A DNA stretch of 64,000 nucleotides, taken from assembly GCF_027942865.1 (NCBI RefSeq), contig NC_134507.1, forward strand, positions 1,664,425 to 1,728,424, written 5' to 3'. Below are positions 9,644 to 45,289 of the stretch, piece after piece. A program made the position numbers and the translations under genes. Below the pieces are notes generated by a model, which ran no database searches, was not told where the DNA came from, and was given only the letters and a program-made list of their open reading frames with translations. Each line of letters opens with the position of its first letter. Within the stretch, counting starts at the first letter, position 1. This stretch comes from Odontesthes bonariensis (lineage: Eukaryota; Chordata; Actinopteri; Atheriniformes; Atherinopsidae).

Positions 9644-12600
9644 GTGAGTCCGCTTCTTCATCAGGAGTCCAAGCCACGCCGTGGTTCAGAGCCCACGGGC
9701 GCCGCCACGCCGTGGTTCAGAGCCCACGGGCGCCGGCACGCCGTGTTTCAGGAGCCCACGGGCTCCGGCACGCCGTGTTTCAGAGCCCACGGGCTCCGGC
9801 ACGCCGTGTTTCAGAGCCCACGGGAGCCGGCACGCCGTGTTTCAGAGCCCACGGGCGCCGGCACGCCGTGTTTCAGAGCCCACGGGCTCCGGCACGCCGT
9901 GTTTCAGAGCCCACGGGCGCCGGCACGCCGTGTTTCAGGAGCCCACGGGCGCCGGCACGCCGTGTTTCAGGAGCCCACGGGCGCCGGCACGCCGTGTTTC
10001 AGAGCCCACGGGCGTCAGCACGCCGTGTTTCAGTGCCCACGGGCGCCGGCACGCCGTGTTTCAGAGCCCACGGGCGCCGGCACGCCGTGTTTCAGAGCCC
10101 ACGGGCGCCGGCACGCCGTGTTTCAGGAGCCCACGGGCGCCGGCACGCCGTGTTTCAGGAGCCCACGGGCTCCGGCACGCCGTGTTTCAGAGCCCACGGG
10201 CGTCAGCACGCCGTGTTTCAGGAGCCCACGGGCTCCAGCACGCCGTATTTCAGAGCCCACGGGCGCCAGCACGCCGTGTTTCAGAGCCCACGGGCGCCGG
10301 CACGCCGTGTTTCAGAGCCCACGGGCGCCAGCACGCCGTGTTTCAGGAGCCCACGGGCGCCGGCACGCCGTGTTTCAGAGCCCACGGGCGCCGGCACGCC
10401 GTGTTTCAGGAGCCCACGGGCTCCGGCACGCCGTGTTTCAGAGCCCACGGGCGCCAGCACGCCGTGTTTCAGGAGCCCACGGGCGCCGGCACGCCGTGTT
10501 TCAGGAGCCCACGGGCTCCGGCACGCCGTGTTTCAGAGCCCACGGGCGTCAGCACGCCGTGTTTCAGGAGCCCACGGGCTCCAGCACGCCGTGTTTCAGG
10601 AGCCCACGGGCGCCGGCACGCCGTGTTTCAGAGCCCACGGGCGCCGGCACGCCGTGTTTCAGAGCCCACGGGCGCCGGCACGCCGTGTTTCAGGAGCCCA
10701 CGGGCGCCGGCACGCCGTGTTTCAGAGCCCACGGGCTCCGGCACGCCGTGTTTCAGAGCCCACGGGCTCCGGCACGCCGTGTTTCAGAGCCCACGGGCGC
10801 CGGCACGCCGTGTTTCAGAGCCCACGGGCGCCGGCACGCCGTGTTTCAGAGCCCACGGGCGCCGGCACGCCGTGTTTCAGGAGCCCACGGGCGCCGGCAC
10901 GCCGTGTTTCAGAGCCCACGGGCGCCGGCACGCCGTGTTTCAGAGCCCACGGGCGCCGGCACGCCGTGTTTCAGAGCCCACGGGCTCCGGCACGCCGTGT
11001 TTCAGAGCCCACGGGCTCCGGCACGCCGTGTTTCAGAGCCCACGGGCGCCGGCACGCCGTGTTTCAGAGCCCACGGGCGCCGGCACGCCGTGTTTCAGAG
11101 CCCACGGGCGCCGGCACGCCGTGTTTCAGAGCCCACGGGCGCCGGCACGCCGTGTTTCAGGAGCCCACGGGCTCCGGCACGCCGTGTTTCAGAGCCCACG
11201 GGCGCCAGCACGCCGTGTTTCAGGAGCCCACGGGCGTCAGCACGCCGTGTTTCAGGAGCCCACGGGCGCCAGCACGCCGTGTTTCAGAGCCCACGGGCGC
11301 CAGCACGCCGTGTTTCAGAGCCCACGGGCGCCAGCACGCCGTATTTCAGAGCCCACGGGCGCCTGCACGCCGTGTTTCAGAGCCCACGGGCGCCAGCACG
11401 CCGTATTTCAGAGCCCACGGGCGCCTGCACGCCGTGTTTCAGGAGCCCACGGGCTCCAGCACGCCGTGTTTCAGAGCCCACGGGCGCCAGCACGCCGTGT
11501 TTCAGAGCCCACGGGCGCCAGCACGCCGTGTTTCAGGAGCCCACGGGCGCCAGCACGCCGTATTTCAGAGCCCACGGGCGCCAGCACGCCGTGTTTCAGA
11601 GCCCACGGGCGCCAGCACGCCGTGTTTCAGTTTGCTAACCCTCATTTCTTGATGTAAATGAACAGTAAAGAGGGGAAAGGGTCACATGTCTCTGAATGAT
11701 GGTTTAAAGTCGGTTTGGGTGATTTGTGTCGCCAGGACCAACGGTCAGTGCTTCGCCATCATCGAGCAGGACGAGTTCGGAGAGATCCACCTGACCTCCG
11801 GCTGCATGAAGTACGAAGGCTCACACTTCCAGTGCAAGGTAGGACCCCCCCCCCCCCTCATGGCTCGCCTCCAGCCTCAGATATAAACAGTTCTTCCACA
11901 TCACCTGGTCTTTAGGATTGATTTAGTTTAGATTTTTCTTCTTAAAGATGAGTTTCCCTGCTGGGTTTCTGTTTGGGTGCATGTCAACTTTCCTAAAACT
12001 CGACCTCAAAGGTGTCTCCTTCCATCTGAGCGCCGGCTCGGAACCCGGAGATACCAGAGGAGAGAGGAGCGGGTTCCAAGGTTGGGAACGTTGTTGTTTT
12101 TGGTGTAAAAGTAAAACCAAATGTGTAAATCTGTGGCCCGTCCCTCCTTTCAGACACTGGGTGAACTGTCCCCGGGGTGTTTCTCACCTGTTCGCTACAT
12201 TTAAACACCATATTTAGGTCAAAGTCAAATTTATTTATAGGACATTTCATGTCCAAACAATTCAAAGTGCTTCACATAAAATAAAAGCATTGCAGCAGGG
12301 AGTGGAAGAAGCATTAAAATACATAAAAGGATATAAAGAGAAACAAATCAACTTTAAAAACCAGCAACAGTCCAGATAAGTTCACAGATATCGTGCAGAT
12401 TTCATGCATAGACACATGAGAACAGAAATGTCTTTAACCTGGATTTAAAAATGTCTCCATTTGGTGAAAGTTTAATCTCCACTGGCAGTTTGTTCCACTT
12501 GTTTGCAGCATAACAGCTAAATGCTGCTTCTCCATGTTTAGTCTGGACTCTGGACTGGACCAGCTGACCTGAGTCCTTGGATCTCAGAGCTCTGCTGGCT

Positions 12601-15600
12601 TTATATTCTCTGAACAGATCACAGATGGAAACCTTTTAACATCTATTCTGTGACTGACTGGAGTAAAGATTTTAAAGCCGGTGAGAAGTGAACCTTTGTG
12701 ACCCGTTTGATTGACAGGACTCCCCCAAAGCTCAGACCAGGAGGACGATCGAGTGCTGCAACACAGACTTCTGCAACAGGGACCTGCAGCCGACCCTGGC
12801 CCCCCAGCTTCCCATCGGTAACCCCCCCCATCAGATCAGATCAGAGTGTCTCAGGTGAGGTCAGAACTAACCGCCGTGCTGCTTTCTCTGCAGAGGGCAG
12901 CCCCCACTGGTTGGCCTTCCTCATCTCCATGACGGTGTGCTGCTGCACCCTGATCTGCGTCACCGTGGTCTGCTACTACAGGTAGGACCAGCTGAGCCCT
13001 CATTTCCCCTTTAAAACCACCTAAAAACATCTACAGGTAGGACCAGCTGAGCCCTCATTTCCCCTTTTAAAACCACCTAAAAACATCTACAGGTAGGACC
13101 AGCTGAGCCCTCATTTCCCCTTTTAAAACCACCTAAAAACATCTACAGGTAGGACCAGCTGAGCCCTCATTTCCCCTTTTAAAACCACCTAAAAACATCT
13201 ACAGGTAGGACCAGCTGAGCCCTCATTTCCCCTTTTAAAACCACCTAAAAACATCTACAGGTAGGACCAGCTGAGCCCTCATTTCCCCTTTTAAAACCAC
13301 CTAAAAACATCTACAGGTAGGACCAGCTGAGCCCTCATTTCCCCTTTTAAAACCACCTAAAAACATCTACAGGTAGGACCAGCTGAGCCCTCATTTTCCC
13401 TTTAAAACCACCTAAAAACATCTACAGGTAGGACCAGCTGAGCCCTCATTTCCCCTTTTAAAACCACCTAAAAACATCTACAGGTAGGACCAGCTGAGCC
13501 CTCATTTCCCCTTTTAAAACCACCTAAAAACATCTACAGGTAGGACCAGCTGAGCCCTCATTTCCCCTTTTAAAACCACCTAAAAACATCTACAGGTAGG
13601 ACCAGCTGAGCCCTCATTTTCCCTTTAAAACCACCTAAAAACATCTACAGGTAGGACCAGCTGAGCCCTCATTTCCCCTTTTAAAACCACCTAAAAACAT
13701 CTACAGGTAGGACCAGCTGAGCCCTCATTTCCCCTTTTAAAACCACCTAAAAACATCTACAGGTAGGACCAGCTGAGCCCTCATTTCCCCTTTAAAACCA
13801 CCTAAACACATCTACAGGTAGGACCAGCTGAGCCCTCATTTCCCCTTTTAAAACCACCTAAAAACATCTACAGGTAGGACCAGCTGAGCCCTCATTTCCC
13901 CTTTAAAACCACCTAAAAACATCTACAGGTAGGACCAGCTGAGCCCTCATTTCCCCTTTTAAAACCACCTAAAAACATCTACAGGTAGGACCAGCTGAGC
14001 CCTCATTTCCCCTTTTAAAACCACCTAAAAACATCTACAGGTAGGACCAGCTGAGCCCTCATTTCCCCTTTTAAAACCACCTAAAAACATCTACAGGTAG
14101 GACCAGCTGAGCCCTCATTTCCCCTTTAAAACCACCTAAAAACATCTACAGGTAGGACCAGCTGAGCCCTCATTTCCCCTTTAAAACCACCTAAAAACAT
14201 CTACAGGTAGGACCAGCTGAGCCCTCATTTGCCCTTTAAAACCACCTAAAAACATCTACAGGTAGGACCAGCTGAGCCCTCATTTCCCCTTTTAAAACCA
14301 CCTAAAAACATCTACAGGTAGGACCAGCTGAGCCCTCATTTCCCCTTTAAAACCACCTAAAAACATATACAGGTAGGACCAGCTGAGCCCTCATTTCCCC
14401 TTTTAAAACCACCTAAAAACATCTACAGGTAGGACCAGCTGAGCCCTCATTTCCCCTTTTAAAACCACCTAAAAACATCTACAGGTAGGACCAGCTGAGC
14501 CCTCATTTCCCCTTTTAAAACCACCTAAAAACATCTACAGGTAGGACCAGCTGAGCCCTCATTTCCCCTTTAAAACCACCTAAAAACATCTACAGGTAGG
14601 ACCAGCTGAGCCTTCATTTCCCCTTTTAAAACCACCTAAAAACATCTACAGGTAGGACCAGCTGAGCCCTCATTTCCCCTTTAAAACCACCTAAAAACAT
14701 CTACAGGTAGGACCAGCTGAGCCCTCATTTCCCCTTTTAAAACCACCTAAAAACATCTACAGGTAGGACCAGCTGAGCCTTCATTTCCCCTTTAAAACCA
14801 CCTAAAAACATCTACAGGTAGGACCAGCTGAGCCCTCATTTCCCCTTTTAAAACCACCTAAAAACATCTACAGGTAGGACCAGCTGAGCCTTCATTTCCC
14901 CTTTAAAACAACTTAAAAACATCTACAGGTAGGACCAGCTGAGCCCTCATTTCCCCTTTTAAAACCACCTAAAAACATCTACAGGTAGGACCAGCTGAGC
15001 CCTCATTTCCCCTTTAAAACAACCTAAAAACATCTACAGGTAGGACCAGCTGAGCCCTCATTTCCCCTTTTAAAACAACCTAAAAACATCTACAGGTAGG
15101 ACCAGCTGAGCCCTCATTTCCCCTTTTAAAACCACCTAAAAACATCTACAGGTAGGACCAGCTGAGCCCTCATTTCCCCTTTTAAAACCACCTAAAAACA
15201 TCTGCAGGTAGGACCAGCTGAGCCCTCATTTCCCCTTTTAAAACCACCTAAAAACATCTACAGGTAGGACCAGCTGAGCCCTCATTTCCCCTTTAAAACC
15301 ACCTAAAAACATCTACAGGTAGGACCAGCTGAGCCCTCATTTCCCTTTAAAACCACCTAAAAACATCTACAGGTAGGACCAGCTGAGCCCTCATTTCCCC
15401 TTTAAAACCACCTAAAAACATCTACAGGTAGGACCAGCTGAGCCCTCATTTCCCCTTTTAAAACCACTTAAAAACATCTACAGGTAGGACCAGCTGAGCC
15501 CTCATTTCCCCTTTTAAAACCACCTAAAAACATCTACAGGTAGGACCAGCTGAGCCCTCATTTCCCCTTTTAAAACCACTTAAAAACATCTACAGGTAGG

Positions 15601-18600
15601 ACCAGCTGAGCCTTCATTTCCCCTTTTAAAACCACCTAAAAACATCTACAGGTAGGACCAGCTGAGCCCTCATTTCCCCTTTTAAAACCACCTAAAAACA
15701 TCTACAGGTAGGACCAGCTGAGCCCTCATTTCCCCTTTTAAAACCGCCTAAAAACATCTACAGGTAGGACCAGCTGAGCCCTCATTTCCCCTTTTAAAAC
15801 CACTTAAAAACATCTACAGGTAGGACCAGCTGAGCCCTCATTTCCCCTTTTAAAACCACCTAAAAACATCTACAGGTAGGACCAGCTGAGCCCTCATTTC
15901 CCCTTTTAAAACCACCTAAAAACATCTACAGGTAGGACCAGCTGAGCCCTCATTTCCCCTTTTAAAACCACCTAAAAACATCTACAGGTAGGACCAGCTG
16001 AGCCCTCATTTCCCCTTTAAAACCACCTAAAAACATCTACAGGTAGGACCAGCTGAGCCCTCATTTCCCCTTTTAAAACCACCTAAAAACATCTACAGGT
16101 AGGACCAGCTGAGCCTTCATTTCCCCTTTTAAAACCACCTAAAAACATCTACAGGTAGGACCAGCTGAGCCCTCATTTCCCCTTTTAAAACCACCTAAAA
16201 ACATCTACAGGTAGGACCAGCTGAGCCCTCATTTCCCCTTTTAAAACCACCTAAAAACATCTACAGGTAGGACCAGCTGAGCCCTCATTTCCCCTTTAAA
16301 ACCACCTAAAAACATCTACAGGTAGGACCAGCTGAGCCCTCATTTCCCTTTTAAAACCACCTAAAAACATCTACAGGTAGGACCAGCTGAGCCCTCATTT
16401 CCCCTTTTAAAACCACCTAAAAACATCTACAGGTAGGACCAGCTGAGCCCTCATTTCCCCTTTAAAACAACCTAAAAACATCTACAGGTAGGACCAGCTG
16501 AGCCCTCATTTCCCCTTTTAAAACCACCTAAAAACATCTACAGGTAGGACCAGCTGAGCCCTCATTTCCCCTTTAAAACCACCTAAAAACATCTACAGGT
16601 AGGACCAGCTGAGCCCTCATTTCCCCTTTGAAACCACCTAAAAACATCTACAGGTAGGACCAGCTGAGCCCTCATTTCCCCTTTAAAACAACTTAAAAAC
16701 ATCTACAGGTAGGACCAGCTGAGCCCTCATTTCCCCTTTAAAACCACCTAAAAACATCTACAGGTAGGACCAGCTGAGCCCTCATTTCCCCTTTTAAAAC
16801 CACCTAAAAACATCTACAGGTAGGACCAGCTGAGCCCTCATTTCCCCTTTAAAACCACCTAAAAACATCTACAGGTAGGACCAGCTGAGCCCTCATTTCC
16901 CCTTTTAAAACCACCTAAAAACATCTACAGGTAGGACCAGCTGAGCCTTCATTTCCCCTTTAAAACCACCTAAAAACATCTACAGGTAGGACCAGCTGAG
17001 CCCTCATTTCCCCTTTTAAAACCACCTAAAAACATCTACAGGTAGGACCAGCTGAGCCCTCATTTCCCCTTTAAAACAACCTAAAAACATCTACAGGTAG
17101 GACCAGCTGAGCCCTCATTTCCCCTTTTAAAACCACCTAAAAACATCTACAGGTAGGACCAGCTGAGCCCTCATTTCCCCTTTTAAAACAACCTAAAAAC
17201 ATCTACAGGTAGGACCAGCTGAGCCCTCATTTCCCCTTTAAAACCACCTAAACACATCTACAGGTAGGACCAGCTGAGCCCTCATTTCCCCTTTTAAAAC
17301 CACCTAAAAACATCTACAGGTAGGACCAGCTGAGCCCTCATTTCCCCTTTTAAAACCGCCTAAAAACATCTACAGGTAGGACCAGCTGAGCCCTCATTTC
17401 CCCTTTTAAAACCGCCTAAAAACATCTACAGGTAGGACCAGCTGAGCCCTCATTTCCCCTTTAAAACCACCTAAAAACATCTACAGGTAGGACCAGCTGA
17501 GCCCTCATTTCCCCTTTTAAAACCGCCTAAAAACATCATACGTTAATATTTATTTCATAAATCTTTTATTCCACTTCAGTTCTGATCATAACTACCAAGT
17601 TTTCAATTATTTAAAAAAAAATGAACCCTTTAGATGCCAATTTGAACTTTTTAGCCCAAATTTTAAGCCTTTAGGTGCCAGTATTTTCAAAATATGTGGA
17701 ATTATTGAGTGGAGATAATTATGGTCTGGGATATGTCAATGATCAGCAACAACATTGATTTTTTTTAGGGACTTTTAATTCTTTTGTTATGCCTGATTTA
17801 AAGAAAAACACTAATTTCTGAAAAGGGACATTTTGAGGGTTTTTTTCTACACAATGAAAATTTGCATTGTATATGATGTGTGTTTGAAAAAATGCGTGGA
17901 ATTAGAGGAGAAAGTTCCCCCCATGTGGACAGAAATGTCCCCCATCAGGGGTAACCTCGCTTTAACAGAGCCAGCAGAGGAACTTCGGGCAGTTAGAGAC
18001 TGAAATGAAAGCCCTGGTGTTGTGCGTGTGTGTTACAGGTACAAGTGGCAGGCGGAGCGTCAGCGGTACCCCAAAGACCTGGAGCAGGAGGTCTTCATCC
18101 CGGCCGGGGAGTCGCTCAAAGACCTCATCCATCAGTCCCAGAGCTCCGGCAGCGGCTCGGGGCTCCCCCTGCTGGTACGGGCGCCTCATCGCACTCAGAA
18201 ATATCACTCTCTGTTTGTTTGTTTTATTCAGTCACACAGTAAACAACAAATGTGTTCAGTACAATCACAGCATTTTTTTAAGCGTAACGCTCATATTTAA
18301 GCCTGTCCTGTTGAACAAAATGAAGCCATCCATCAACCTATATCTTTAAAAATACTAAAGTAAGAAGAAAAATAAGAGTAAAAAGACAAAAAACAGAATT
18401 GCATCTAATAAAGTAAAAAAAAATAGAAGAATAATGAAACCAAATCATTTCCTGAATTTTAACTCGACATAAACTCCTGAATGTTGTTAGGAGTCATCGG
18501 ATTGATTTAAATTCATCAGAGCTCCTCTTTGCCATGAAAATGAGCTGACGCAACATCTGGAAACAGCCAAGCAGCAGAGAGGAACATCTGCGCCACCCTT

Positions 18601-21600
18601 TCTGGAACCAGTTCCTGCCTTTTTAAATGCTCGTGCATACGTTTTCTGTCATTAGCAGGGTGGCCGCGGGTCCTTAAAAAGTCTTAATTCCATTTTCCTG
18701 AAAATAAGACCTTAAAAAGTATTAAATTGTCTTAAATTCAGATTGCATGGGTCTTAAATATTTGTGTATTTTTCTTTTTGCTCTAAAGGAACAGTATTTA
18801 TTTTTTAAATGTTCTGAAAATATTGTAATAAATTTAATTTAGTGATGACATTTTTGTGGTCTTTTCGCATGACACACATTTAGCCGTCATTTCACCGTTT
18901 TACTGTCAGTGCGTTTACTTGGAAATACTTTGTATTTCCATCGTGCGTTTGGTCTTAAATGTCATTTAGAAGTGGTACTAAAAGGTCTTAAATGTAACTT
19001 GTTTACACCTGTATACACCCTGATTAGAAGCCACAGGAAGTGTTGATGTGAGCTTAAATGCGTTTCCCTCCTGCAGGTGCAGCGGACCATCGCCAAGCAG
19101 ATCCAGATGGTGCGTCAGATCGGGAAGGGCCGCTACGGCGAGGTGTGGCTGGGCCGCTGGCGGGGAGAGAAGGTGGCCGTCAAGGTCTTCTTCACCCGCG
19201 AGGAGGCCAGCTGGTTCAGAGAGACGGAGATCTACCAGACGGTCCTGATGAGACACGAGAACATCCTGTGTGGGTTTCACGCTCAGTTTGCATCGGATAC
19301 ACGGAGAGTCGGCAGCTTATTTCCTGCTCATTACTTCCAGGCTTCCGTAGACATTTTTCATTAGTCGAGCAGAAGAACGGGGGCTAGATCTCTGAGCTCA
19401 GAGCTTTAAGGCGAGACACTACAGGTGAATAGGGTAATATTTTAAAATAATAGATATCACCATGAAACTTCCTCAGTTGATTACTTATACAAGTATGAAA
19501 AAAAAAATGTATTGCAAGTTTTAGAAATTTGTATGTTTAATTATGCAAATGAGGCATTATCTCATTAAATATGCGCAGATTTGCATATATTTCCGGAAGC
19601 TAGATCTGAACATATGATAAAGCCAGGTGCAAAATTATTTTTTCCTTTTGTTTACACACAAAATGAAAAGAAAAGTACAGAGGGATTTCAGGATATCTGC
19701 TTTCATTTCCTAAGAAATCAAAATATACTGTCCATAGCCTAAAAAAACATCGATTTTTGCCACATTTTTTTATTATAATGTTACATAAATCAGGCCAGGA
19801 ATGATTTATCAACAAACCCTTCTGTAAATATCTTCAGAATACTGCTAAGTGTATAACTGGAGAGTTTGGTGTTAGTAGGTGCTCCATAGGCTGAGATATT
19901 GATACTGGAAAAATACAAAAAACTAATCTAGAGAAAACGGCATTTAAAGATTTAAATAGGGGAATTTAATACAACAATTGCTCAAAAACAGAGTAAATGC
20001 TCAGGCCCTTAGTAATACTAATATAGAATAAAATAATCTTATTAATAAAGAATACAAGCTCAATACAACACAGTAAAAGACATGTATGAGCAGCCGCTGT
20101 CATTAACTCGGTTTCCTAACGACAGTTTATGCTCAGGTGAGCTGCTTCCCGATGCTTCATCAGCTGATCTGATAGATTTTATTTTATTGCATCTTTCTTT
20201 TCTTTGAAAGTTGTGATGTTTTGGGGCATTTTCAGAGATTCTAAACTAAATAGCAATTTATAATAGAAGCTAAACACGGGAGCGTCTGAGCGAATCACGT
20301 TAACAGAAACGAGCAGCAGCCAATGAGATTCTGTCTTTAGCTATAAATCCGCCTTTAGACATTCCTGATTGGTTACTGATAGAAAGGAAGTGCCGTTATT
20401 TGGGTTTCATATCATTGTGCAGGAGACTCAGAGCTTTCCAACGGTACCGGTCATGACTTCAGTAAACAGGCGAAGCTCGGCATGGAATTGCTAACGTTGG
20501 AATACTAACTTTTTGGTAAATTTGGGCGAAACTCGCTGCAGCGAGCAAACAAAATGTAATAAAATAAACTTTTTAATTTATGTTTTCAACGTTTTCTTTA
20601 CAGCAGTTTGAAAGAACACATGTTGAAGGAGTAAACTGGCCCAAAATCTCAAAATTGACCACATGAAAAATCCCTGTTTTTGCCTGCCGTGTCTGGCCTT
20701 CAGAGGGAACGCCTGGAGCCTGAAGGACTGCAGCGCCGATCAATACTCCTGATTAATTTATAATCAGGGGATGATTTACACTGAGGGCGAGCGTCGCCGG
20801 CGGGCTGAGGCTGGAAGCCGTCAGACGTGCTGCAGAGGAGCGTCTGAGCAGTTTTCTTTCTGATCCATTGTGCCTCATCGATGCTGGGAGTTGGTCCCAG
20901 TTTGTGGATCAGTAGCATGAAAACCGAAGCAGATCTGTGTTAAACTTAGTCAGAATCATTGATCTGTTCGGTCTCCGATTCGCCGTAAATCTGTTCTTTA
21001 TCTCCTCGCTCGGCTTCAGGCGAGTCGGCGCCTCCTGAACCAGATTTAATCAGATCTGTGATGAAGTGACAGAAGCCTGAAGTTTTATCCAGAAACACGA
21101 GGACGTTTTCCTGCAGTCGGGCGTTGGATCTGATATGGAGCCCTTTCAGGGCCGTAACCTTAAAAAAAGTAGAGTTTTAAACTGAATTCACAGGTTTGAG
21201 CTCAGAGTTTATTTTCTACAGCCCTTTACAGACAATCCTTACGGTGCTTTACAGCAGGTAATAAATAAAAACAATAAGTAAAAACAATAAAAGAACAGTG
21301 GAAGCACTAAAATACAACAAAATCGAATAAGATAAAATAAGATAAAAGTGTCGTCATACTGCTGGGTATTAAGTTATTATCCGTGGTTTGGTGAGAAAGT
21401 TTGGTTAGTTAAGCTGTTCGGGACAAATCTTAGTGTGAGGGCGATTAAATATGAAAAAGTGTTCTCAGCCACGCCCACCGTTTCCCACAATGCAGTTCAC
21501 CCCAACATGGCGTCTTCCCGCTGGTGTTAAACTTCATCTGGAAGCTTGTGAACGCTCCGTACGCTGTGGGGTGAGCAACCTGCTCTGCCGGCTGCCACGG

Positions 21601-24410
21601 TGCATTGTGGGGGATGTAGGCAGCAGCAGATCATTTAAAATCTGTTCCAAGCTGCTTTATAGACTCACCTGAAGCCTGCACAGGTGAGTCTCTCACACCA
21701 TCGGTTTGATGGGAAAAGGTTTCCGAACAAAGCTGAAGCCGCCGTGTTTCTGCCACCAACTCGAAGTCAAAGCGACGTCCTGTAACCTGAGATTTAACCC
21801 GTAGAAATAAGACTTCCCTCCTTGCTCCGGCAGGCTTCATCGCGGCGGACATCCAGGGCACGGGCACCTTCACGCAGCTGTTCCTCATCACCGACTACCT
21901 GGAGAACGGCTCCCTGTACGACTACCTGAAGATGACCACGCTGGACACGCAGTCGCTGCTGCGGCTGGCCTACTCGGCGGCCTGCGGCCTCTGCCACCTG
22001 CACACGGAGATCTACGGCACGCAGGGCAAGCCGGCCATCGCCCACCGGGACCTGAAGAGCAAGAACATCCTGGTGAAGAAGAACGGCACCTGCTGCATCG
22101 CCGACCTGGGCCTCGCCGTCAAGTTCAACAGGTGAGCCGAGTCTGACGCGCAGCGCCGCGTTTGGGCCGAGGTAATAATCCGTTATAACACCGACCTGCT
22201 CTTTGTGTTGCCATAGCGACACCAATGAGGTGGACATCCCTCTGAGCACCCGGGTGGGGACGAGACGCTACATGGCCCCCGAGGTCCTGGACGAGAGCCT
22301 CAACAAGAACCACTTCCAGGCCTACATCATGGCCGACATGTACAGCTACGGCCTGGTGGTCTGGGAGATGGGCAGGCGCTGCGTCACCGGAGGTACGTGC
22401 ACGCTCACAGGCACGCACATCCTCTTTGAAACCTTTGAACCCACTCAGTGGCTTGTCTGACCGTAACAAATCGCCCGCAGAGTTGTTCATCGCGTCACTG
22501 ATGCGATGCGAGACTTAAACACAGGAGCAGAAACGGGTTCAGCTTGTTTTCATGTGGAAAACATGAAAAAGGTCAGAAGTTGGAACAGCTTTGTTCATAG
22601 AAAAGGATCAAAAAGGGTAAAAATAAAAGAAAAACATTGTGATGTCATCAGTGATGTCACCACATGTAAATCAGGTGATTAAATTCACTCCCTCCTTAAA
22701 CTTTGGGTCCCACTTTATCTCTGATTGGAACCTGTTAAAATAAATGTTTCCTTTAAAAACCTAAAATTACAAAATGAAGTTAAAGTCCAGTTGGAAGGAA
22801 TATTTCTGCTGTTTTAAAATGAAGAAAGGATCGTTTTTCAGCTGCTTTTCGGGGTCCAGTTTGTTTTGTAAACGCTGTTCTCAGGAAGGTTTGAATAAAG
22901 TTGGAATAAAGTTGGAACAGGTGAGTGCAGCTGTGCTCTCTCTGCAGGTATGGTGGAGGACTACCAGCTGCCCTACTACGACATGGTGCCCTCTGACCCG
23001 TCCTACGAGGACATGCTGGAGATGGTGTGCGTTAAAGGACTGAGGCCCACCGTGTCCAACCGCTGGAACAGTGACGAGGTGAGAAACCGAAACCAGCGGC
23101 TCTCTGGGCTCACCAGAACCGGCCGGGAGGTTTTAATGAAACAGGAAACAGAACTACAGAAGCAGAAATCAGGATTAAACACAAGAAACACAGATTTATG
23201 AAGTGTTTGGAACATCTGGATGTTGGGCAAACAATCATTTTAATGCTGAATATGAGTAACAGTTCTGTAAACGTGAACTGAGCTACAGCTAACAGGAAGC
23301 GTTTGGCCGTTAGCTCCTGCAGCTAACAGGAAGCGTTTGGCCGTTAGCTCCTGCAGCTAACAGGAAGCGTTAGGCCGTTAGCTCCTGCAGCTAACAGGAA
23401 GAGTTTAGCCGTTAGTTCCTGCAGCTAACAGGAAGAGTTTGGCGGTTAGCTCACGCAGCTAACAGGAAGAGTTTGGCCGTTAGCTCCTGCAGCTAACAGG
23501 AAGAGTTTGGCCGTTAGCTCCTGCAGCTAACAGGAAGAGTTTGGCCGTTAGCTCACGCAGCTAACAGGAAGCGTTTGGCCGTTAGCTCACGCAGCTAACA
23601 GGAAGCGTTTGGCCGTTAGCTCACGCAGCTAACAGGAAGCGTTTGGCCGTTAGCTCACGCAGCTAATAGGAAGCGTTTGGCCGTTAGCTCACGCAGCTAA
23701 CAGGAAGCGTTTGGCCGTTAGCTCCTGCAGCTAACAGGAAGCGTTTGGCCGTTAGCTCCTGCAGCTAACAGGAAGGGTTTGGCCGTTAGCTCCTGCAGCT
23801 AACAGGAAGCGTTTGGCCGTTAGCTCCTGCAGCTAACAGGAAGCGTTTGGCCGTTAGCTCCTGCAGCTAACAGGAAGCGTTTTGCCGTTAGCTCCTGCAG
23901 CTAACAGGAAGCGTTTTGCCGTTAGCTCCTGCAGCTAACAGGAAGCGTTTGGCTGTTAGCTCGTGCAGCAACAGGAAAAAATAAGAGTAATTACGTGGAA
24001 ATGTGTTCAGAATCCAATGTGATGTCATCAGTGATGTCACCAAATGTAAATCAGGTGATTAAATTCACTTTAAACGGTGTTAAAATGTTTAGTTTCCTTT
24101 AAGAAATGTGAAGTTTCCTTTAATAAATGTTTAGTTTCCTTTAATAAATGTGAAGTTTCCTTTAAAAACGCCTCAGAGCTTAAAGGGTTAAAGGTTCTGT
24201 TGGCTGGATCAGAAGCAGCTCGTCCTCAGGAACAGGTTCTGAAGGTTCTGAATGTTCTGAAGGTTTCTAACTTTGTTTCCGCAGTGCCTTCGAGCCATGC
24301 TGAAGCTGATGTCAGAGTGCTGGGCCCATAACCCCGCCTCCCGCCTCACCATCCTCAGAGTCAAGAAGACGCTCGCCAAGATGGTGGAGTCCCAGGACAT
24401 CAAGATCTGA
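9481..24410 (+). CDS. bmpr1a: BMP receptor type IA, ten coding exons (5' start exon not found)
   Basis: A transmembrane serine/threonine kinase that binds BMP ligands, is phosphorylated in its GS box by type II receptors, and signals through Smad1/5/8. Ten exons join in frame into about 503 residues plus stop (human BMPR1A is 532). In order: cysteine-rich ectodomain with [10 protein letters not shown] and TRRTIECC, one membrane segment, GS box [11 protein letters not shown], then a kinase with [23 protein letters not shown], the type I form [18 protein letters not shown] and the C-terminus VESQDIKI. The ectodomain fits BMPR1A better than BMPR1B. The exon with the start codon and signal peptide lies upstream and was not found, so which fish paralogue this is stays open. 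Two introns hold large minisatellites. Kinase exons are GC-rich at third positions. Confidence 0.93.
9674..11629. repeat. Minisatellite, 31-bp unit, ~62 copies, in bmpr1a intron
   Basis: GC-rich units of AGAGCCCACGGGCGCC plus GGCACGCCGTGTTTC, 31 bp each, with a 32-bp variant carrying AGGAGCC. The array starts 30 bp after the splice donor. Because 31 is not a multiple of three and the unit lacks stop codons, all three plus-strand frames stay open for over 640 codons. Each unit ends in GTGTTTCAG, which looks like a 3' splice site core. Confidence 0.98.
11736..11838 (+). CDS. bmpr1a: bmpr1a exon: mid ectodomain
   Basis: Acceptor TGTGTCGCCAG, donor GTAGGA. It encodes [16 protein letters not shown] and [14 protein letters not shown], the conserved cysteine framework of the ligand-binding domain. 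The donor is followed by a run of 12 Cs. Confidence 0.95.
12216..12660 (-). mobile_element. L2-like LINE 3' end fragment in intron
   Basis: Read on the minus strand, it ends in the fish LINE tail around ATTCAAAGTGCTTCAC. It encodes a broken C-terminus resembling [17 protein letters not shown] then [10 protein letters not shown], matching the better-preserved copy at 61142-62330. Truncated and inactive. Confidence 0.7.
12718..12817 (+). CDS. bmpr1a: bmpr1a exon: end of ectodomain
   Basis: Acceptor TTGATTGACAG, donor GTAACC. It encodes [14 protein letters not shown] and [15 protein letters not shown], the last cysteines of the ectodomain. It ends after the first base of a glutamate codon. Confidence 0.95.
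12894..12981 (+). CDS. bmpr1a: bmpr1a exon: transmembrane segment
   Basis: Acceptor TTTCTCTGCAG, donor GTAGGACC. It encodes a hydrophobic stretch beginning [10 protein letters not shown] and ending ICVTVVCYY. Its last bases, CTACAG, and its donor are repeated about 82 times in the downstream intron. Confidence 0.93.
12982..17535. repeat. Splice-donor minisatellite, ~56-bp unit, ~82 copies
   Basis: The array begins at the first intron base. Each unit (56 bp, or 54-55 bp with a shorter T run) carries GTAGGACCAGCTGAGCCC, a pyrimidine tract CATTTCCCCTTTT, AAAACCACCTAAAAACATC and CTACAG, then the next GTAGGA. So each unit repeats the exon-intron junction CTACAG|GTAGGA. The last ~27 bp of the unit match the end of the transposon that starts where the array stops. 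The array makes up 90% of this 5,057-bp intron. Confidence 0.98.
17509..17966. mobile_element. GGGGACATTT MITE-like element (copy 2, inverted)
   Basis: Reverse-complement match to 8847-9405: TTCAGTTCTGATCATAAC, CCAAGTTTTCAATTATTT and GTGGACAGAAATGTCCCCC. Its outer left end is replaced by the 56-bp array, whose units contain that end. Copies 1 and 2 flank bmpr1a ectodomain exons in opposite orientation. Confidence 0.75.
18039..18174 (+). CDS. bmpr1a: bmpr1a exon: juxtamembrane and GS box
   Basis: Acceptor GTGTGTTACAG, donor GTACGG. It encodes [20 protein letters not shown] then [13 protein letters not shown], the glycine-serine box phosphorylated by type II receptors. It ends on a codon boundary. 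Confidence 0.96.
18175..18650. other. Intron, no element recognised
   Basis: AT-rich intron sequence without clear repeat termini. Confidence 0.4.
18656..19022. mobile_element. CAGGGTG...CACCCTG non-autonomous DNA element
   Basis: Termini CAGGGTG and CACCCTG are flanked on both sides by ATTAG (18651-18655 and 19023-19027), a likely 5-bp target duplication. The interior is rich in GGTCTTAAA-like repeats in both orientations. It ends 54 bp before the next exon, so it contributes to the acceptor region. Superfamily uncertain, hAT-like by termini. Confidence 0.6.
19077..19269 (+). CDS. bmpr1a: bmpr1a exon: kinase N-lobe
   Basis: Acceptor CCTCCTGCAG. It encodes [18 protein letters not shown], the glycine loop, the catalytic lysine in VAVKVFF, and RHENIL. 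The only workable donor is CCTGT|GTGGGT, which leaves a T as the last exon base. The split codon then reads TGC (Cys) where the family has Gly. Confidence 0.9.
19270..21833. other. Intron with AT-rich and possible repeat content
   Basis: 2.5-kb intron. 19430-20690 is AT-rich, partly reminiscent of dispersed fish repeats, but I could not fix termini. 21190-21340 resembles a degraded LINE tail. 20270-20420 looks unique. No exon seen. Confidence 0.4.
21834..22131 (+). CDS. bmpr1a: bmpr1a exon: kinase core
   Basis: Acceptor TGCTCCGGCAG, donor GTGAGC. It encodes [17 protein letters not shown] (L45 region that sets Smad choice), then [16 protein letters not shown] with the catalytic Asp, and ADLGLAVKF. 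Confidence 0.97.
22217..22392 (+). CDS. bmpr1a: bmpr1a exon: activation segment and C-lobe
   Basis: Acceptor TTGCCATAG, donor GTACGT. It encodes [26 protein letters not shown] and [16 protein letters not shown]. The activation segment and APE motif are intact. Confidence 0.96.
22393..22947. other. Intron; holds one of two copies of a 53-bp block
   Basis: 22638-22690 (GTGATGTCATCAGTGATG...) is almost identical to 24018-24070 in the next intron. Otherwise nothing recognised. Confidence 0.7.
22948..23078 (+). CDS. bmpr1a: bmpr1a exon: kinase C-lobe
   Basis: Acceptor CTCTCTGCAG, donor GTGAGA. It encodes [33 protein letters not shown] and SNRWNSDE. Length 131 bp. Confidence 0.96.
23288..23976. 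repeat. Minisatellite, 34-bp unit, ~20 copies, in bmpr1a intron
   Basis: Units of CTAACAGGAAGCGTTTGG plus CCGTTAGCTCCTGCAG. Variants include AGAGTTT for GCGTTT and CACGCAG for CCTGCAG, clustered in neighbouring copies, which suggests block duplication. Each unit contains the near-palindrome GCTAAC/GTTAGC. Confidence 0.97.
24285..24410 (+). CDS. bmpr1a: bmpr1a last coding exon
   Basis: Acceptor GTTTCCGCAG. It encodes [20 protein letters not shown] and [15 protein letters not shown] followed by TGA at 24408-24410. The conserved C-terminus confirms the end of the receptor. Confidence 0.96.
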
Positions 24411-28521: not shown

Positions 28522-28671
28522 CTACTTGTCCTCGGGCTTGTTGAAGCAGTACGTCAGGCAGCACTTCCCGCAGTAGTGGCGGTCGAAGTGGCTCGCCATG
28601 AAGACGCCGGCGCCGCACTCGTCAGCGGGACACTCGCGCCTCAGCCGGTGGATCTTACCGTTCTCGTCCAC
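28522..28671 (-). CDS. rps27a: rps27a coding exon 5
   Basis: Encodes [19 protein letters not shown], then [14 protein letters not shown] and NKPEDK, stop TAG at 28522-28524. Acceptor TTTCGTCTCCAG on the minus strand. Contains the zinc-binding cysteines. Confidence 0.97.
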
Positions 28672-31202
28672 CTGGAGACGAAACACAGAGTTCAGACTGC
28701 GGCAGACGGATCCCGGCGGGTTCGAACGCGAGCGGCGCGGCCTTACCTTGTAGTATTTGAGCACAGCGAGCTTGACCTTCTTCCTCTTGTGCTTGTTCTT
28801 CTTCGGGGTGGTGTAGGACTTCTTCTTCCTCTTCTTAGCGCCACCTCGCAGCCTCAGCACCAAGTGCAGAGTCGACTCCTGAACACAAAACGTCCCGTTT
28901 CAGTAAGCCGGTCTTAACATTGTGTTTACTCCCTTTGTCCTACGGGTCAGAAATGCCCCGCCCTACCAAAGACCCAAAATAAAGCAACTTAATTGAATTT
29001 TAAATTCAAAATCTATTTTGTATGATGAAACCACCTGTTATTGATCTATTCAACTCAATACATTTTTTATCATGTATTTTTGGTTAAACAATACAAAAAG
29101 ATAATCACCAGTTTTCAGGATTACACATTACTTTTTCTAATGATGGGGTCCCTTTAGGAAAAGTTGGAAAAAGATAGTTTAAGGTATTTTTTCTACAGCT
29201 AAGCATGGTAGCTTTTGACCCGCAGGACAACAGGAGGGTTAAACGGATAAAGACCCCGAGAACAGAACACCAGCTGGCTTTAACGTCTGATCCAAATATT
29301 CTGATATCCCAGTTTGAGCCAAAACTTGTGGAAACTGTGAGGAAATGTCGCCCCTTCCCTTCGGCCTAACTAACCCCCCCACGGCACCCTAACGGTGTGA
29401 TGTGCAGAGAGCGGCGTGCACGCCCTGGGCTCACCTTCTGGATGTTGTAGTCGGACAGCGTGCGCCCGTCCTCCAGCTGCTTCCCAGCGAAGATCAACCT
29501 CTGCTGATCGGGAGGGATTCCTGCACACAACAAGCGGCGCAGGGTCAGAAACTACCGGGCGCACAGACAGCCCATACGTACAGCTGCAGGAGCAGCCGGT
29601 CCTTTAAACGCCGCGCTGCTTCTGATCAGACTTTAATCAAAAGGACGTTTCAGTTTAGCCGTAAATCATACAATCAGTTATTAGAAGGTAATCATGTCAA
29701 AGTTCTGCAGAAAAGTCTTTAGGTTTAAAACTAACAAACGTCTCATTTTAAAGCAGCTTTTTAACGTAATAATCATCAATAACCAACAAACTGAGGCCTT
29801 AAGACGGCCCACAGCTCCCAGAGAAAACTATTCGATTCATTAAAAAGCAGCATCAGGGTGACCAACACATTTAAGGGAGAATTAAGTTTAAACTAAAAAA
29901 AATAACTTCGTCTCGCTTTTAAAATTCAACTTTCCCTCAAATAAAAAACAGACTTTTATTTGCTATAAAACTCCAGAAGTCAAACACTTCAGAGGCTGAA
30001 ACTTGATATTTTTTTTTTTTACAGCATTTTAACTTCTGACAGCAGTGCTATCGGCATGCTTTGGCTGGTTAAATTAAACAGTTAACTCACCCTCTCTGTC
30101 CTGCAGGTTAAATTAAACAGTTAACTCACCCTCTCTGTCCTGCAGGTTAAATTAAACAGTTAACTCACCCTCTCTGTCCTGCAGGTTAAATTAAACAGTT
30201 AACTCACCCTCTCTGTCCTGCAGGTTAAATTAAACAGTTAACTCACCCTCTCTGTCCTGCAGGTTAAATTAAACAGTTAACTCACCCTCTCTGTCCTGCT
30301 GGTTAAATTAAACAGTTAACTCACCCTCTCTGTCCTGCTGGTTAAATTAAACAGTTAACTCACCCTCTCTGTCCTGCTGGTTAAATTAAACAGTTAACTC
30401 ACCCTCTCTGTCCTGCTGGTTAAATTAAACAGTTAACTCACCCTCTCTGTCCTGCTGGTTAAATTAAACAGTTAACTCACCCTCTCTGTCCTGCTGGTTA
30501 AATTAAACAGTTAACTCACCCTCTCTGTCCTGCTGGTTAAATTAAACAGTTAACTCACCCTCTTTGTCCTGCTGGTTAAATTAAACAGTTAACTCACCCT
30601 CTCTGTCCTGCTGGTTAAATTAAACAGTTAACTCACCCTCTTTGTCCTGCTGGTTAAATTAAACAGTTAACTCACCCTCTTTGTCCTGCTGGTTAAATTA
30701 AACAGTTAACTCACCCTCTTTGTCCTGGATCTTTGCCTTGACATTTTCAATAGTGTCTGACGGCTCGACCTGTTAAAACAGAAGATTACAGGTGAGCCAC
30801 AGCACGTTCTTCCGGTCACATGGTGGCTAAAACAATCCAAGTTTAAACAGACACACACATTTCATTTAATAAAAACACTAAAACTGCCAGAGACGCTTTA
30901 AAAACCTCAAATCGAGGCGGTTCAAGCCGCTGCTGTCCGCCACACGTGTTTACGGTGTCTGACTAGCTTAGCCACTTAGCTTTGGTTTTACAGTCTAACA
31001 TCCACCAGCAAGAGTGAAAAACTCACACACTACGTTATATTTAAATCTTAAAGTTAAAATTAAACCAGTTAAAGCCGTTAAAGTGGCAGTTATTTATCCA
31101 AACTATTGCGTAAAGTAAATCTGAGCGCCGCATCCCTCCATCATAGAAACCCACCTCGAGGGTTATGGTCTTCCCCGTGAGGGTTTTGACGAAAATCTGC
31201 AT
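28522..31202 (-). CDS. rps27a: Ubiquitin-ribosomal protein eS31 fusion, complete, five coding exons
   Basis: Encodes one ubiquitin fused to the 40S protein eS31. Cleavage after the LRLRGG end releases free ubiquitin and the ribosomal protein. Exons on the minus strand (31155-31202, 30715-30769, 29435-29520, 28747-28878, 28522-28671) total 471 nt, 156 residues plus stop, the family length. The ubiquitin part begins [16 protein letters not shown]. The ribosomal part has the basic stretch [20 protein letters not shown] and a four-cysteine zinc site (ECPADEC, CGKC). No defects seen. A 39-bp minisatellite built on the exon 2 donor fills half of intron 2. Confidence 0.98.
28747..28878 (-). CDS. rps27a: rps27a coding exon 4
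   Basis: Encodes [13 protein letters not shown] (end of ubiquitin, with the processing site) and the lysine-rich start of eS31, ending KLAVLKYYK. Donor GTAAGG, acceptor TTGTGTTCAG. Confidence 0.97.
29435..29520 (-). CDS. rps27a: rps27a coding exon 3
   Basis: Encodes [18 protein letters not shown] then TLSDYNIQK of ubiquitin, with Lys48 in AGKQLEDG. Acceptor TTGTGTGCAG, donor GTGAGC. Confidence 0.97.
30068..30716. repeat. Splice-donor minisatellite, 39-bp unit, ~17 copies, rps27a intron 2
   Basis: On the rps27a sense strand each unit reads CAGGACAGAGAGG, then GTGAGTTAACTG, then TTTAATTTAAC. The first block equals the last 13 bases of exon 2 (with one base change in most units) and the second equals its donor. 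Units nearest the exon keep the exon base (GACAAAGAGG). More distant ones have GACAGAGAGG, and the most distal also change CCAGCAG to CCTGCAG. Confidence 0.98.
30715..30769 (-). CDS. rps27a: rps27a coding exon 2
   Basis: Encodes [18 protein letters not shown] plus the first base of Gly35. Its 3' end GACAAAGAGG|GTGAGT is the seed of the adjacent array. Because the array begins at this junction, the authentic donor is the first of about 17 near-identical candidates. Confidence 0.96.
31155..31202 (-). CDS. rps27a: rps27a coding exon 1 (start codon)
   Basis: ATG at 31202-31200 begins [16 protein letters not shown]. The exon ends on a codon boundary, donor GTGGGT. An acceptor TTTTTGTTCAG lies 17 bp upstream of the ATG, so the first exon is non-coding. 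Confidence 0.97.
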
Positions 31203-31329
31203 CCTGCCGTTGAGTCCACCTGAACAAAAACACACACACAAGCCTTCACAGTCCACTCGGAATAAAAAATATTCCGAAATGTGCTTATTTTTCACAAAAA
31301 TCAGCCGAAAACACGGAGCGCCGCCTTAC

Positions 31330-34900: not shown

Positions 34901-37900
34901 TAAAAATCCCAATTAAAGCAGCTGCAAAAAGACACAAAACAACAAGATTGTGTCCACAAAGAGGCTAAATGTGACCATAAACCATCAGGAAGTGACTTCA
35001 AAGAGCTGCAAAGTGACCTCAGAAACAGTTGGAAGAACCCCGGTGCTGTCGTGGTGTTTGGACTGATTTATCGGTTAAAACCTCTTCTTCATCAGGTCTG
35101 ACTGTGGCTGAGGCTGAGGACCCCGGGGCTCTGGACCGGCATCTGGAGGATTTAGAGGCCCAGCGAGCAGCCCTGCTGGACAGAAAGCGCCGCTGTGTTC
35201 CTCTGGAGGTCCAAGCAGAGCTGGACGCTGAGCTGGTGGCCGCCAAACGCCACCGAGACCGCCTGAGAGCCCAGAACCACCACCTGAAGCTCCTGTGAGA
35301 CCTGAACTGAACCATGAGAATCCCTTCAGTTTATTTCTGCGGCCAACAGGAGGAAACTGTGACTTTGTGTTGCTCTGCCTGCAGATACCAGCGTCTGAAG
35401 CTGGTGTGGGACCGTCTGAGCGGCTGGGAGGAGGGCGGCCAGCAGGCTCCCCTGGAGGACCTCCTGGGCTCCTCTGTGGAGGGCGTCAGGCAGGCCCCAT
35501 CCTCAGAGGGTAACACATCCCACTTTAAGGAAGGTTTCAAACGTCCTCACATTGGTTTCTCCTGACACTCGGGTTTCTTTTGCCCAGCAGAGACGGAGGA
35601 AGACGCCCGCCGCTCCGACTCTGAGCTGTTTGAGGACGAAGAGCCCACCGCAGTGGATGAGTCCGAGCTGCTGGAGGACCACCTGAGCAGGTAGTGAACC
35701 TTCCCTCCTGTCCTCTGCCAATGAGACTCTGAACCTTCCCTCCATCCTCTGCCAATGAGACTCTGAACCTTCCCTCCATCCTCTGCCAATGAGACTCTGA
35801 ACCTTCCCTCCATCCTCTGGCAATGAGTTTCTGAACCTTCCCTCCATCCTCTGCCAATGAGACTCTGAACCTTCCCTCCATCCTCTGCCAATGAGACTCT
35901 GAACCTTCCCTCCATCCTCTGCCAATGAGACTCTGAACCTTCCCTCCATCCTCTACCAATGAGACTCTGAACCTTCCCTCCATCCTCTGCCAATGAGACT
36001 CTGAACCTTCCCTCCATCCTCTACCAATGAGACTCTGAACCTTCCCTCCATCCTCTACCAATGAGACTCTGAACCTTCCCTCCATCCTCTGCCAATGAGA
36101 CTCTGAACCTTCCCTCCATCCTCTGCCAATGAGACTCTGAACCTTCCCTCCATCCTCTGCCAATGAGACTCTGAACCTTCCCTCCATCCTCTGCCAATGA
36201 GACTCTGAACCTTCCCTCCATCCTCTACCAATGAGACTCTGAACCTTCCCTCCATCCTCTACCAATGAGACTCTGAACCTTCCCTCCATCCTCTACCAAT
36301 AAGACTCTGAACCTTCCCTCCATCCTCTACCAATGAGACTCTGAACCTTCCCTCCATCCTCTGCCAATGAGACTCTGAACCTTCCCTCCATCCTCTACCA
36401 ATGACACTCTGAACCTTCCCTCCATCCTCTACCAATGAGACTCTGAACCTTCCCTCCATCCTCTACCAATGAGACTCTGAACCTTCCCTCCATCCTCTGC
36501 CAGTGAGACTCTGAACCTTCCCTCCATCCTCTACCAATGAGACTCTGAACCTTCCCTCCATCCTCTGCCAATGAGACTCTGAACCTTCCCTCCTTCCTCT
36601 ACCAATGAGTCTCTGAACCTTCCCTCCATCCTCTGCTAATGAGACTCTGAACCTTCCCTCCATCCTCTGCCAATGAGTTTCTGAACCTTCCCTCCATCCT
36701 CTGCCAATGAGACTCTGAACCTTCCCTCCATCCTCTGCCAATGAGACTCTGAACCTTCCCTCCATCCTCTACCAATGAGACTCTGAACCTTCCCTCCATC
36801 CTCTGCTAATGAGACTCTGAACCTTCCCTCCATCCTCTGCCAATGAGACTCTGAACCTTCCCTCCATCCTCTGCTAATGAGACTCTGAACCTTCCCTCCA
36901 TCCTCTACCAATGAGTCTCTGAACCTTCCCTCCATCCTCTGCCAATGAGACTCTGAACCTTCCCTCCATCCTCTGCTAATGAGTCTCTGAACCTTCCCTC
37001 CATCCTCTACCAATGAGTTTCTGAACCTTCCCTCCATCCTCTGCCAATGAGTCTCTGAACCTTCCCTCCATCCTCTGCTAATGAGACTCTGAACCTTCCC
37101 TCCATCCTCTACCAATGAGTCTCTGAACCTTCCCTCCATCCTCTGCCAATGAGACTCTGAACCTTCCCTCCATCCTCTGCTAATGAGTTTCTGAACCTTC
37201 CCTCCATCCTCTGCCAATGAGTTTCTGAACCTTCCCTCCATCCTCTACCAATGAGTTTCTGAACCTTCCCTCCATCCTCTACCAATGAGACTCTGAACCT
37301 TCCCTCCATCCTCTGCCAGTGAGACTCTGAACCTTCCCTCCATCCTCTACCAATGAGACTCTGAACCTTCCCTCCATCCTCTGCTAATGAGACTCTGAAC
37401 CTTCCCTCCATCCTCTACCAATGAGTCTCTGAACCTTCCCTCCATCCTCTGCCAATGAGACTCTGAACCTTCCCTCCTTCCTCTACCAATGAGTTTCTGA
37501 ACCTTCCCTCCATCCTCTACCAATGAGTTTCTGAACCTTCCCTCCATCCTCTACCAATGAGTTTCTGAACCTTCCCTCCATCCTCTACCAATGAGACTCT
37601 GAACCTTCCCTCCATCCTCTACCAATGAGACTCTGAACCTTCCCTCCTTCCTCTACCAATGAGTTTCTGAACCTTCCCTCCATCCTCTACCAATGAGACT
37701 CTGAACCTTCCCTCCTTCCTCTACCAATGAGTTTCTGAACCTTCCCTCCATCCTCTGCTAATGAGTCTCTGAACCTTCCCTCCATCCTCTGCTAATGAGT
37801 CTCTGAACCTTCCCTCCATCCTCTACCAATGAGTTTCTGAACCTTCCCTCCATCCTCTGCCAATGAGTTTCTGAACCTTCCCTCCATCCTCTGCCAATGA

Positions 37901-43900: not shown

Positions 43901-44627
43901 CAGCCGGTATTTTGTCAGGTTTTCAACACGTTGGGGATCTAAACGACTACTTTCTCACCTGAAAATGTTTCAAATGTTGCTAAAGTTTACAGAGTTTAGA
44001 GCTTAAGGGAAATCAGCTTCAGGCCGGCTGATTTCGGCTCGGGCAGGAGCCAAATGCATTGTGGGTAAACGCTCTGCATACTGTCTGATCGATCAGTATG
44101 TAGTATGCAGTATGTGAGTATGCAGTATGCAGTATGCAGTATGTAGTATGAAGTATGCAGTATGCAGTATGCAGTATGAAGTATGCAGTATGCAGTATGC
44201 AGTATGTAGTATGTAGTATGTAGTATGCAGTATGTAGTATGCAGTATGCCGTATGTAGTATGTAGTATGCAGTATGTAGTATGCAGTATGCAGTATGCAG
44301 TATGTAGTATGCAGTATGCAGTATCCAGTATGTAGTATGTAGTATGTAGTATGTAGTATGCCGTATGTAGTATGTAGTATGCAGTATGTAGTATGCAGTA
44401 TGCAGTATGCAGTATGTAGTATGCAGTATGCAGTATGTAGTATGTAGTATGCAGTATGCAGTATGTAGTATGTAGTATGCAGTATGTAGTATGCAGTATG
44501 TAGTATGTAGTATGCAGTATGCAGTATGTAGTATGTAGTATGCAGTATGCAGTATGTAGTATGTAGTATGTAGTATGCAGTATGCAGTATGTAGTATGTA
44601 GTATGCAGTATGTAGTCTGCAGTATGT

Positions 44628-44661
<34 letters not shown>

Positions 44662-44662
44662 A

Positions 44663-44717
<55 letters not shown>

Positions 44718-45255
44718 TAGTATGTAGTATGCAGTATGCAGTATGTAGTATGTAGTATGCAGTATGTAGTCTGCAGTATGTAGTATGCAGTATGCAGTAT
44801 GCAGTATGTAGTATGCAGTATGCAGTATGTAGTATGTAGTATGCAGTATGCAGTATGCAGTATGTAGTATGCAGTATGCAGTATGTAGTATGTAGTATGC
44901 AGTATGCAGTATGTAGTATGTAGTATGTAGTATGCAGTATGTAGTCTGCAGTATGTAGTATGTAGTATGTAGTATGCAGTATGCAGTATGTAGTATGCAG
45001 TATGCAGTATGTAGTATGTAGTATGCAGTATGTAGTATGTAGTATGCAGTATGCAGTATGTAGTATGTAGTATGCAGTATGTAGTCTGCAGTATGTAGTA
45101 TGCAGTATGCAGTATGCAGTATGTAGTATGCAGTATGCAGTATGTAGTATGTAGTATGCAGTATGTAGTATGTAGTATGCAGTATGTAGTATGCAGTAAG
45201 CAGTACAGTATGTAGTATGTAGTATGTAGTATGCAGTATGCAGTATGTAGTATGT

Positions 45256-45289
<34 letters not shown>

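Follow-up and report, generated by a model that had tools for sequence, protein, structure and literature searches.

Eighty-two tandem copies of a 5' splice site at an exon–intron junction of bmpr1a in Odontesthes bonariensis

The array and its host gene

The stretch of DNA described here, referred to below as the window, comprises 64,000 nucleotides (nt) of the genome of Odontesthes bonariensis. Ten exons of a receptor gene could be placed in it, drawn by eye on GT–AG boundaries, and together they form one reading frame with a single terminal stop. The extracellular part of the encoded protein matches BMPR1A with a value of 1.9e-50, compared to 5.3e-29 for BMPR1B, and by these matches the gene is bmpr1a. 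Most of the intron that follows its transmembrane exon consists of a tandem array in which the 5' splice site (donor) of that exon is repeated 82 times. The features of this region are the following:

12894..12981 (+): bmpr1a transmembrane exon, 88 nt, ending ..TGC TAC TAC AG|G (ten-exon model, BMPR1A match)
12976..17537 (+): tandem array of 82 units of 54–56 bp, with its first 6 nt (CTACAG) exonic (Tandem Repeats Finder (TRF), exact parsing)
12982..12987 (+): donor GTAGGA of the transmembrane exon, copy 1 of 82 (parsing, donor scoring)
17487..17492 (+): last of the 82 donor copies (parsing)
17538..18038 (+): unique rest of the intron with the real acceptor TTACAG|GTACAAG (acceptor score 6.24)
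18039..18174 (+): bmpr1a GS-domain exon (gene model)

The array cannot be attributed to chance, since TRF reports 82.0 copies with 97% matches and a score of 8697. Exact parsing resolves 82 head-to-tail units, of which 51 are 56 bp long, 29 are 55 bp, and one is 54 bp, with the last one truncated by the end of the array. The start of unit 1 overlaps the transmembrane exon, CTACAG being the last 6 nt of the exon and GTAGGA, from 12982, its donor; a unit is composed of these 6 nt of exon end and of 50 nt of intron start. The array makes up 4,556 of the 5,057 nt of the host intron (90%). When the 81 complete units are aligned, leaving out the truncated last one, 11 of the 56 columns are variable, and the longest invariant run, comprising 20 columns, covers CAG|GTAGGACCAGCTGAGCC. 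With its head-to-tail units in the range of ~7–100 bp and their high identity, the array is a minisatellite and a candidate variable number tandem repeat (VNTR), and, as in the donor VNTR of the CBS gene, both the exon end and the donor lie inside the unit. Among the best-scoring candidates for unit matches in the 945-Mb assembly, 81/81 lie inside the array.

Most of this anatomy had been anticipated in an earlier note made from the letters of the stretch. About 82 tandem copies of a bmpr1a donor, starting at the exon–intron junction, are borne out by TRF, exact parsing, and the BMPR1A match, and the positions given for the end of the exon (12981) and the start of the next one (18039) agree with the ten-exon model. 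The joints between the units, at which the note saw AG|GT about every 56 bp, read AGGT throughout (CAGGTAGGA in 82/82). The start of the array at 12976 was also placed correctly, whereas the end proposed at 17535 is 2 bp short. CTACAG|GTAGGA, expected in every unit, is found in 80/82, whereas the shorter CAG|GTAGGA is present in all 82.

The gene model contains nine introns, the smallest of which is 76 nt long and the next 85 nt. At the junction of the first and second kinase exons (19269–21834, plus strand), the frame-keeping donor TGT|GTGGGT yields ENILCFIAAD. Glycine is usual at this position (ENILGFIAAD), and the cysteine may be either a real change or an assembly error.

Splice-site strength, constraint and folding of the units

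Donors and acceptors were scored with approximate position matrices for human splice sites, with the acceptor matrix spanning 20 nt and the pyrimidine tract of the unit located further upstream. The score of the unit donor, 8.69, is matched by 22 of the 3394 plus-strand GTs outside the array and ranks third among the eight correctly placed donors of bmpr1a (with the donor of the first kinase exon uncounted). The acceptors of units 2–82 have a median score of 0.39 (range −1.83 to 2.62), and this median is reached by 1360 of the 3905 plus-strand AGs outside the array. All ten acceptors of bmpr1a that were scored, at 5.28–12.15, lie above units 2–82, and the first copy, with exon letters upstream of it, scores 6.86. 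As dual sites the units are matched or surpassed on both sides by 10 of the 187 AGGT sites outside the array; the exceptional feature is their repetition, not the quality of any individual unit.

The layout of a unit nevertheless offers a candidate branch site. The motif CTCAT is directly followed by the 11-nt pyrimidine tract TTTCCCCTTTT and then by 24 nt ending in CAG, so that 35 nt separate the branch candidate from the end of the AG, and no further AG intervenes between the CTCAT adenosine and that of the acceptor. Since this spacing falls within the branch-to-AG range of 10–60 nt used for lariat mapping (PMC10156609), the unit acceptor would be weak but legal. The word CCTAAAAAC, which occurs 75 times within the array, was also considered as a branch word; it was judged too close to the AG, and CTCAT is the preferred candidate.

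These results bear on the possibility that the array is a recursive (ratchet) device, by which the intron would be removed stepwise from one AG|GT to the next. Formally, the units do present AG|GT with a zero-length exon at every joint, and the arrangement of CTCAT, pyrimidine tract, and CAG is that of an acceptor; a strong donor is suggested to aid a weak acceptor at dual-specific sites (PMC10809524). The acceptors of units 2–82, however, peak at 2.62, below all ten acceptors of the gene that were scored, in a class of scores that many unrelated AGs reach; the intron is merely 5.06 kb long; and the constraint on the donor columns, described below, is not significant. Such a device is improbable, and in the sequence we saw no evidence that the array had been selected for ratcheted splicing. 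The sequence bears out the designation "tandem 5' splice sites", and that of "recursive sites" only in a formal sense. The earlier note had proposed scoring each unit with a splice-site model and had read every unit as resembling a recursive site with acceptor features upstream of the AG; its donors fare well in that scoring and the pyrimidine tract is present, whereas the acceptor half is weaker than it described.

If the 11 variable columns are distributed at random, all nine donor columns are spared in 12% of the trials, and an invariant run of at least 20 columns appears in 7%; selection is not demonstrated by either figure.

The first copy differs from the others in its surroundings, as it is included in a local fold:

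12967..12989 (+): hairpin containing the exon's own donor (GGTCTGCTAC..GTAGGACC), −6.9 kcal/mol

The 5' arm of this hairpin is exon sequence and is therefore absent from the later copies. A copy of the unit folds at −3.9 kcal/mol, and among 1500 random plus-strand GTs a local fold as stable as −6.9 kcal/mol was seen in 2.4%. The predicted accessibility of copy 1 is 0.0003 compared to 0.0007 for the median copy, a ratio of ~0.4, and this predicted hairpin would, if anything, favor the later copies. RNA structure as a driver of the whole arrangement was rejected, with the first 311 nt folding no better than shuffled sequences (z 0.88; an equally good or better fold was obtained for 83 of 100 shuffles).

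The same comparison is relevant to an alternative in which copy 1 is always used through exon definition and the other 81 copies have no effect at the RNA level. Copy 1 is directly adjacent to an exon of 88 nt whose acceptor is strong (10.66), and the nearly identical context of the units favors no particular later copy. Its reduced predicted accessibility points the other way, as does the fact that identical competing donors are usually shared. We regard such a silent coincidence as unlikely.

Predicted consequences for the mRNA and origin of the array

The junction is read in the frame TAC TAC AG|G TAG, placing a stop codon at the very beginning of the intron. In each of the six cases tried (1, 2, 3, 5, 10, or 81 units retained), the protein ends in VVCYYR*, directly after the membrane helix. 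Each retained block opens with GT and closes with AG, and the lengths of the blocks are 54–56 nt for one unit, 109–112 nt for two, and 164–168 nt for three. Blocks of at least two units (109 nt or more) could thus possibly be excised as introns in a second step, restoring the frame, whereas a lone retained unit is probably not removable, being shorter than the shortest intron of the gene model (76 nt).

A protein ending in VVCYYR* would be a membrane-anchored receptor without a kinase, and it may be asked whether the use of later donors, or retention of the intron, serves as a regulated decoy that damps signaling by bone morphogenetic proteins. Kinase-less type I receptors are dominant negatives, and any retained unit would give this product. 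The stop, however, is located already in the first unit, so that retention of an intron lacking the array would yield an identical protein, and the exon junctions downstream should provoke nonsense-mediated decay. Hidden polyadenylation sites, which were also sought, were rejected, as neither AATAAA nor ATTAAA occurs within the array intron. Of the explanations weighed here, regulation of this kind appears highly improbable.

The origin of the array is best considered together with other minisatellites of this genome. Counting arrays of at least 150 bp with a period of at least 7, minisatellites account for 30.3% of the window. Across 15 sampled stretches of 10 kb, the cover is 0–100% with a mean of ~33%, and 7/15 consist of arrays over more than 40% of their length; as 14 of these stretches lie at 1 Mb and one lies at 3 Mb of their contigs, the sample is biased to chromosome ends. 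The window contains two further introns that are nearly all array, at 9644–11735 (93.5%) and 35691–41059 (99.9%). Together with the array described above, they indicate that in this genome the expansion of intronic minisatellites proceeds as far as splice sites and across them. Minisatellites are also present in the growth-hormone introns of gilthead seabream (PMC3045353).

The former of the two introns (plus strand) also belongs to bmpr1a, and its 31-bp GC-rich array starts 31 nt past the donor. The latter (plus strand) lies in a CLHC1-like gene, matching TSNAXIP1_N (1.5e-18) and Clathrin_H_link (1e-07), and its 34-bp array runs from 4 nt inside the intron onto the acceptor; these units repeat a pyrimidine tract, and 4 of 159 AGs score at least 5, the real acceptor included. 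A 42-bp array (CTGGTTTCTGAAGCTTTAACTGGTTTCATCTCAGATCTTCTG) follows at 41202–42122 (plus strand), ~35 nt past a donor of the CLHC1-like gene, with units that contain TTTCATCTCAG, acceptor-like by eye. At 44094–45615, a 7-bp array of ~218 copies of CAGTATG is situated within a 625-residue open frame on the minus strand. The gene at 28525–31325 (minus strand) encodes a ubiquitin–ribosomal protein S27a fusion (Ribosomal_S27 3.3e-22, ubiquitin 5.7e-12), and between two of its exons a 39-bp array (30064–30727) carries in its minus-strand unit the donor-like AGGGTGAGT, which scores 10.27 in the sense of the gene.

In the sampled DNA and the window, a donor scoring at least 8.69 is found on 4 of the 72 unit strands of 36 minisatellites, and one of these strands is that of the bmpr1a array. 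A search of the assembly for donor motifs occurring three times at 38–68 bp spacing, in which the matches are heavily clumped and arrays of short units are counted repeatedly, returned 24,602 + 38,979 matches for CAGGTRNG compared to 2,860 + 1,262 for the backward pattern, and 11,100 + 22,708 (33,808) for CAGGTRAG compared to 223 + 146 (369). For CAGGTRAGT (39–69 bp spacing), the counts were 568 + 618 compared to 0 + 63. The permuted motif AGTGCRAG gave 16 + 123 (139), and its reverse 84 + 50 (134). On contig C1, at least six CAGGTRAG loci are among the matches listed (with one more in the CAGGTRAGT search), compared to one AGTGCRAG locus, and the units of the donor-motif arrays among the matches listed are mixed in length, from ~11 to 53 bp. 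This excess may reflect the usual G-rich CAGG core of minisatellites and not an origin from splice sites.

A further possibility is that arrays of the bmpr1a type are splice-neutral: a minisatellite that has captured an AG|GT donor, with GT..AG units throughout, would excise itself at the RNA level. Any donor would then be usable, any block of at least two units could be removed in any order with the frame restored each time, and arrays of this type could grow without limit inside essential genes; donor-derived minisatellites would form a recurrent class in this genome. We consider this rather unlikely.

Two relatives of the GS exon were located on contigs C7 and C27. The former copy is bmpr1b, its extracellular part matching BMPR1B with 1.1e-18 compared to 1.9e-13 for the best BMPR1A, in agreement with its GS exon. 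The GS exon on C27 has its best match in BMPR1B (1.4e-07), and no BMPR1A kinase chain is among the matches listed, which leaves BMPR1A as a possible identity; we take the letters RYSIDLEQDETYIPPGES of this copy to be bmpr1b-like. The transmembrane exons of the paralogues end in CTTCAG|GTAATT and CTTCAG|GTAAGA and are followed by introns of 133 and 92 nt, so that in both C7 and C27 the same intron has a normal donor and no array. The position of the intron in the coding sequence is common to both paralogues and is not a new one.

Taken together, these observations make it likely that the array is a minisatellite, now expanded, with a captured donor in its unit; relative to the CBS VNTR it would be a larger and differently phased counterpart. 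A 56-bp segment extending over the exon end (6 nt) and the intron start (50 nt) would have been duplicated, and unequal exchange or slippage during replication would have raised its copy number to 82, as the anatomy suggests and as may be expected where minisatellites are very common in the stretches sampled. In the RNA, judging by the donor score, the units would compete as 5' splice sites of almost equal strength, each with a weak acceptor, and U1 could bind any of these donors. Use of copy 1 would give the normal mRNA, whereas with a later copy n units would stay in the mRNA and translation would stop immediately behind the membrane helix. A leftover GT..AG block of at least two units might in turn be spliced out as a separate intron with the frame restored, and a single leftover unit would be a dead end. 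Preservation of phase in this manner would make growth of the array tolerable. Sequestration of U1 or U2 small nuclear ribonucleoproteins, proposed earlier, is implausible by number, as 82 sites per transcript of one gene face about a million U1 particles per cell.

Several points weigh against capture by an expanding minisatellite. The splice scores are approximate, being based on human matrices. Three times in the window an array end falls within 6 bp of a splice junction, which is more than roughly expected (a rough Poisson estimate assuming 40–60 junctions gives P 0.002–0.006 for three ends and 0.025–0.053 for two events); splice sites may seed arrays, or selection at exon edges may halt them. 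In addition, all 82 donors are intact, and the P of 0.07 for the invariant run that spans them is compatible with weak constraint.

The locus amounts to a natural experiment in donor choice, with 82 near-identical donors offered to the spliceosome within a single intron of a receptor gene that acts in development, and it also tests the tolerance of a large repeat with a splice site inside.

Comparison with known systems

The earlier note knew of no tandem array of recursive splice sites, and no such title is among the matches listed from one open-access library; that view has to be qualified in the light of the CBS VNTR (PMC2630376) and of the dual-specific AGGT sites of UBC (PMC10809524). At least one lariat-based survey of recursive splicing dropped sites that overlap repeats (PMC10156609), and arrays such as that of bmpr1a are therefore invisible to it. 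Recursive splice sites, or ratchet points, share with the bmpr1a units the juxtaposition of acceptor and donor in AG|GT, although in bmpr1a the acceptor half is weak and the site is present in 82 near-identical copies ~56 nt apart.

Tandem duplication of AGGT segments has been described as a route to new introns (PMC4974935). There, too, the duplicated stretch supplies both GT and AG, whereas the duplications in bmpr1a took place within an existing intron and created no new intron position. In UBC, tandem dual-specific AGGT sites lead to stochastic removal of units, with their use seen by reverse transcription polymerase chain reaction, and introns that are multiples of the surrounding repeat unit are in 8.4-fold excess (PMC10809524). 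Both arrays have AGGT at each unit boundary, and a unit can be read as an exon or as a GT–AG intron. The UBC units are coding, 228 nt long, and a multiple of three, so that their retention or removal is neutral to the frame; those of bmpr1a are 54–56 nt long with an immediate in-frame TAG. In the same paper, recognition of donor and acceptor is argued to be mutually helpful at dual-specific sites, which, by analogy, would be the best argument for the weak acceptors of the bmpr1a units.

The closest parallel is the human CBS gene, in which a polymorphic 31-bp VNTR of 16–21 copies is written c.1444_1467+7(16_21) in PMC2630376; counted from the notation c.1444_1467+7, its unit is split into 24 nt of exon and 7 nt of intron. 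In both genes the unit spans the exon end together with the donor, and the donor is repeated head to tail. Unlike the CBS unit, with 24 of its 31 nt in the exon, that of bmpr1a is mostly intron (6 nt of exon and 50 nt of intron), and it has reached 82 copies that fill 90% of the host intron.

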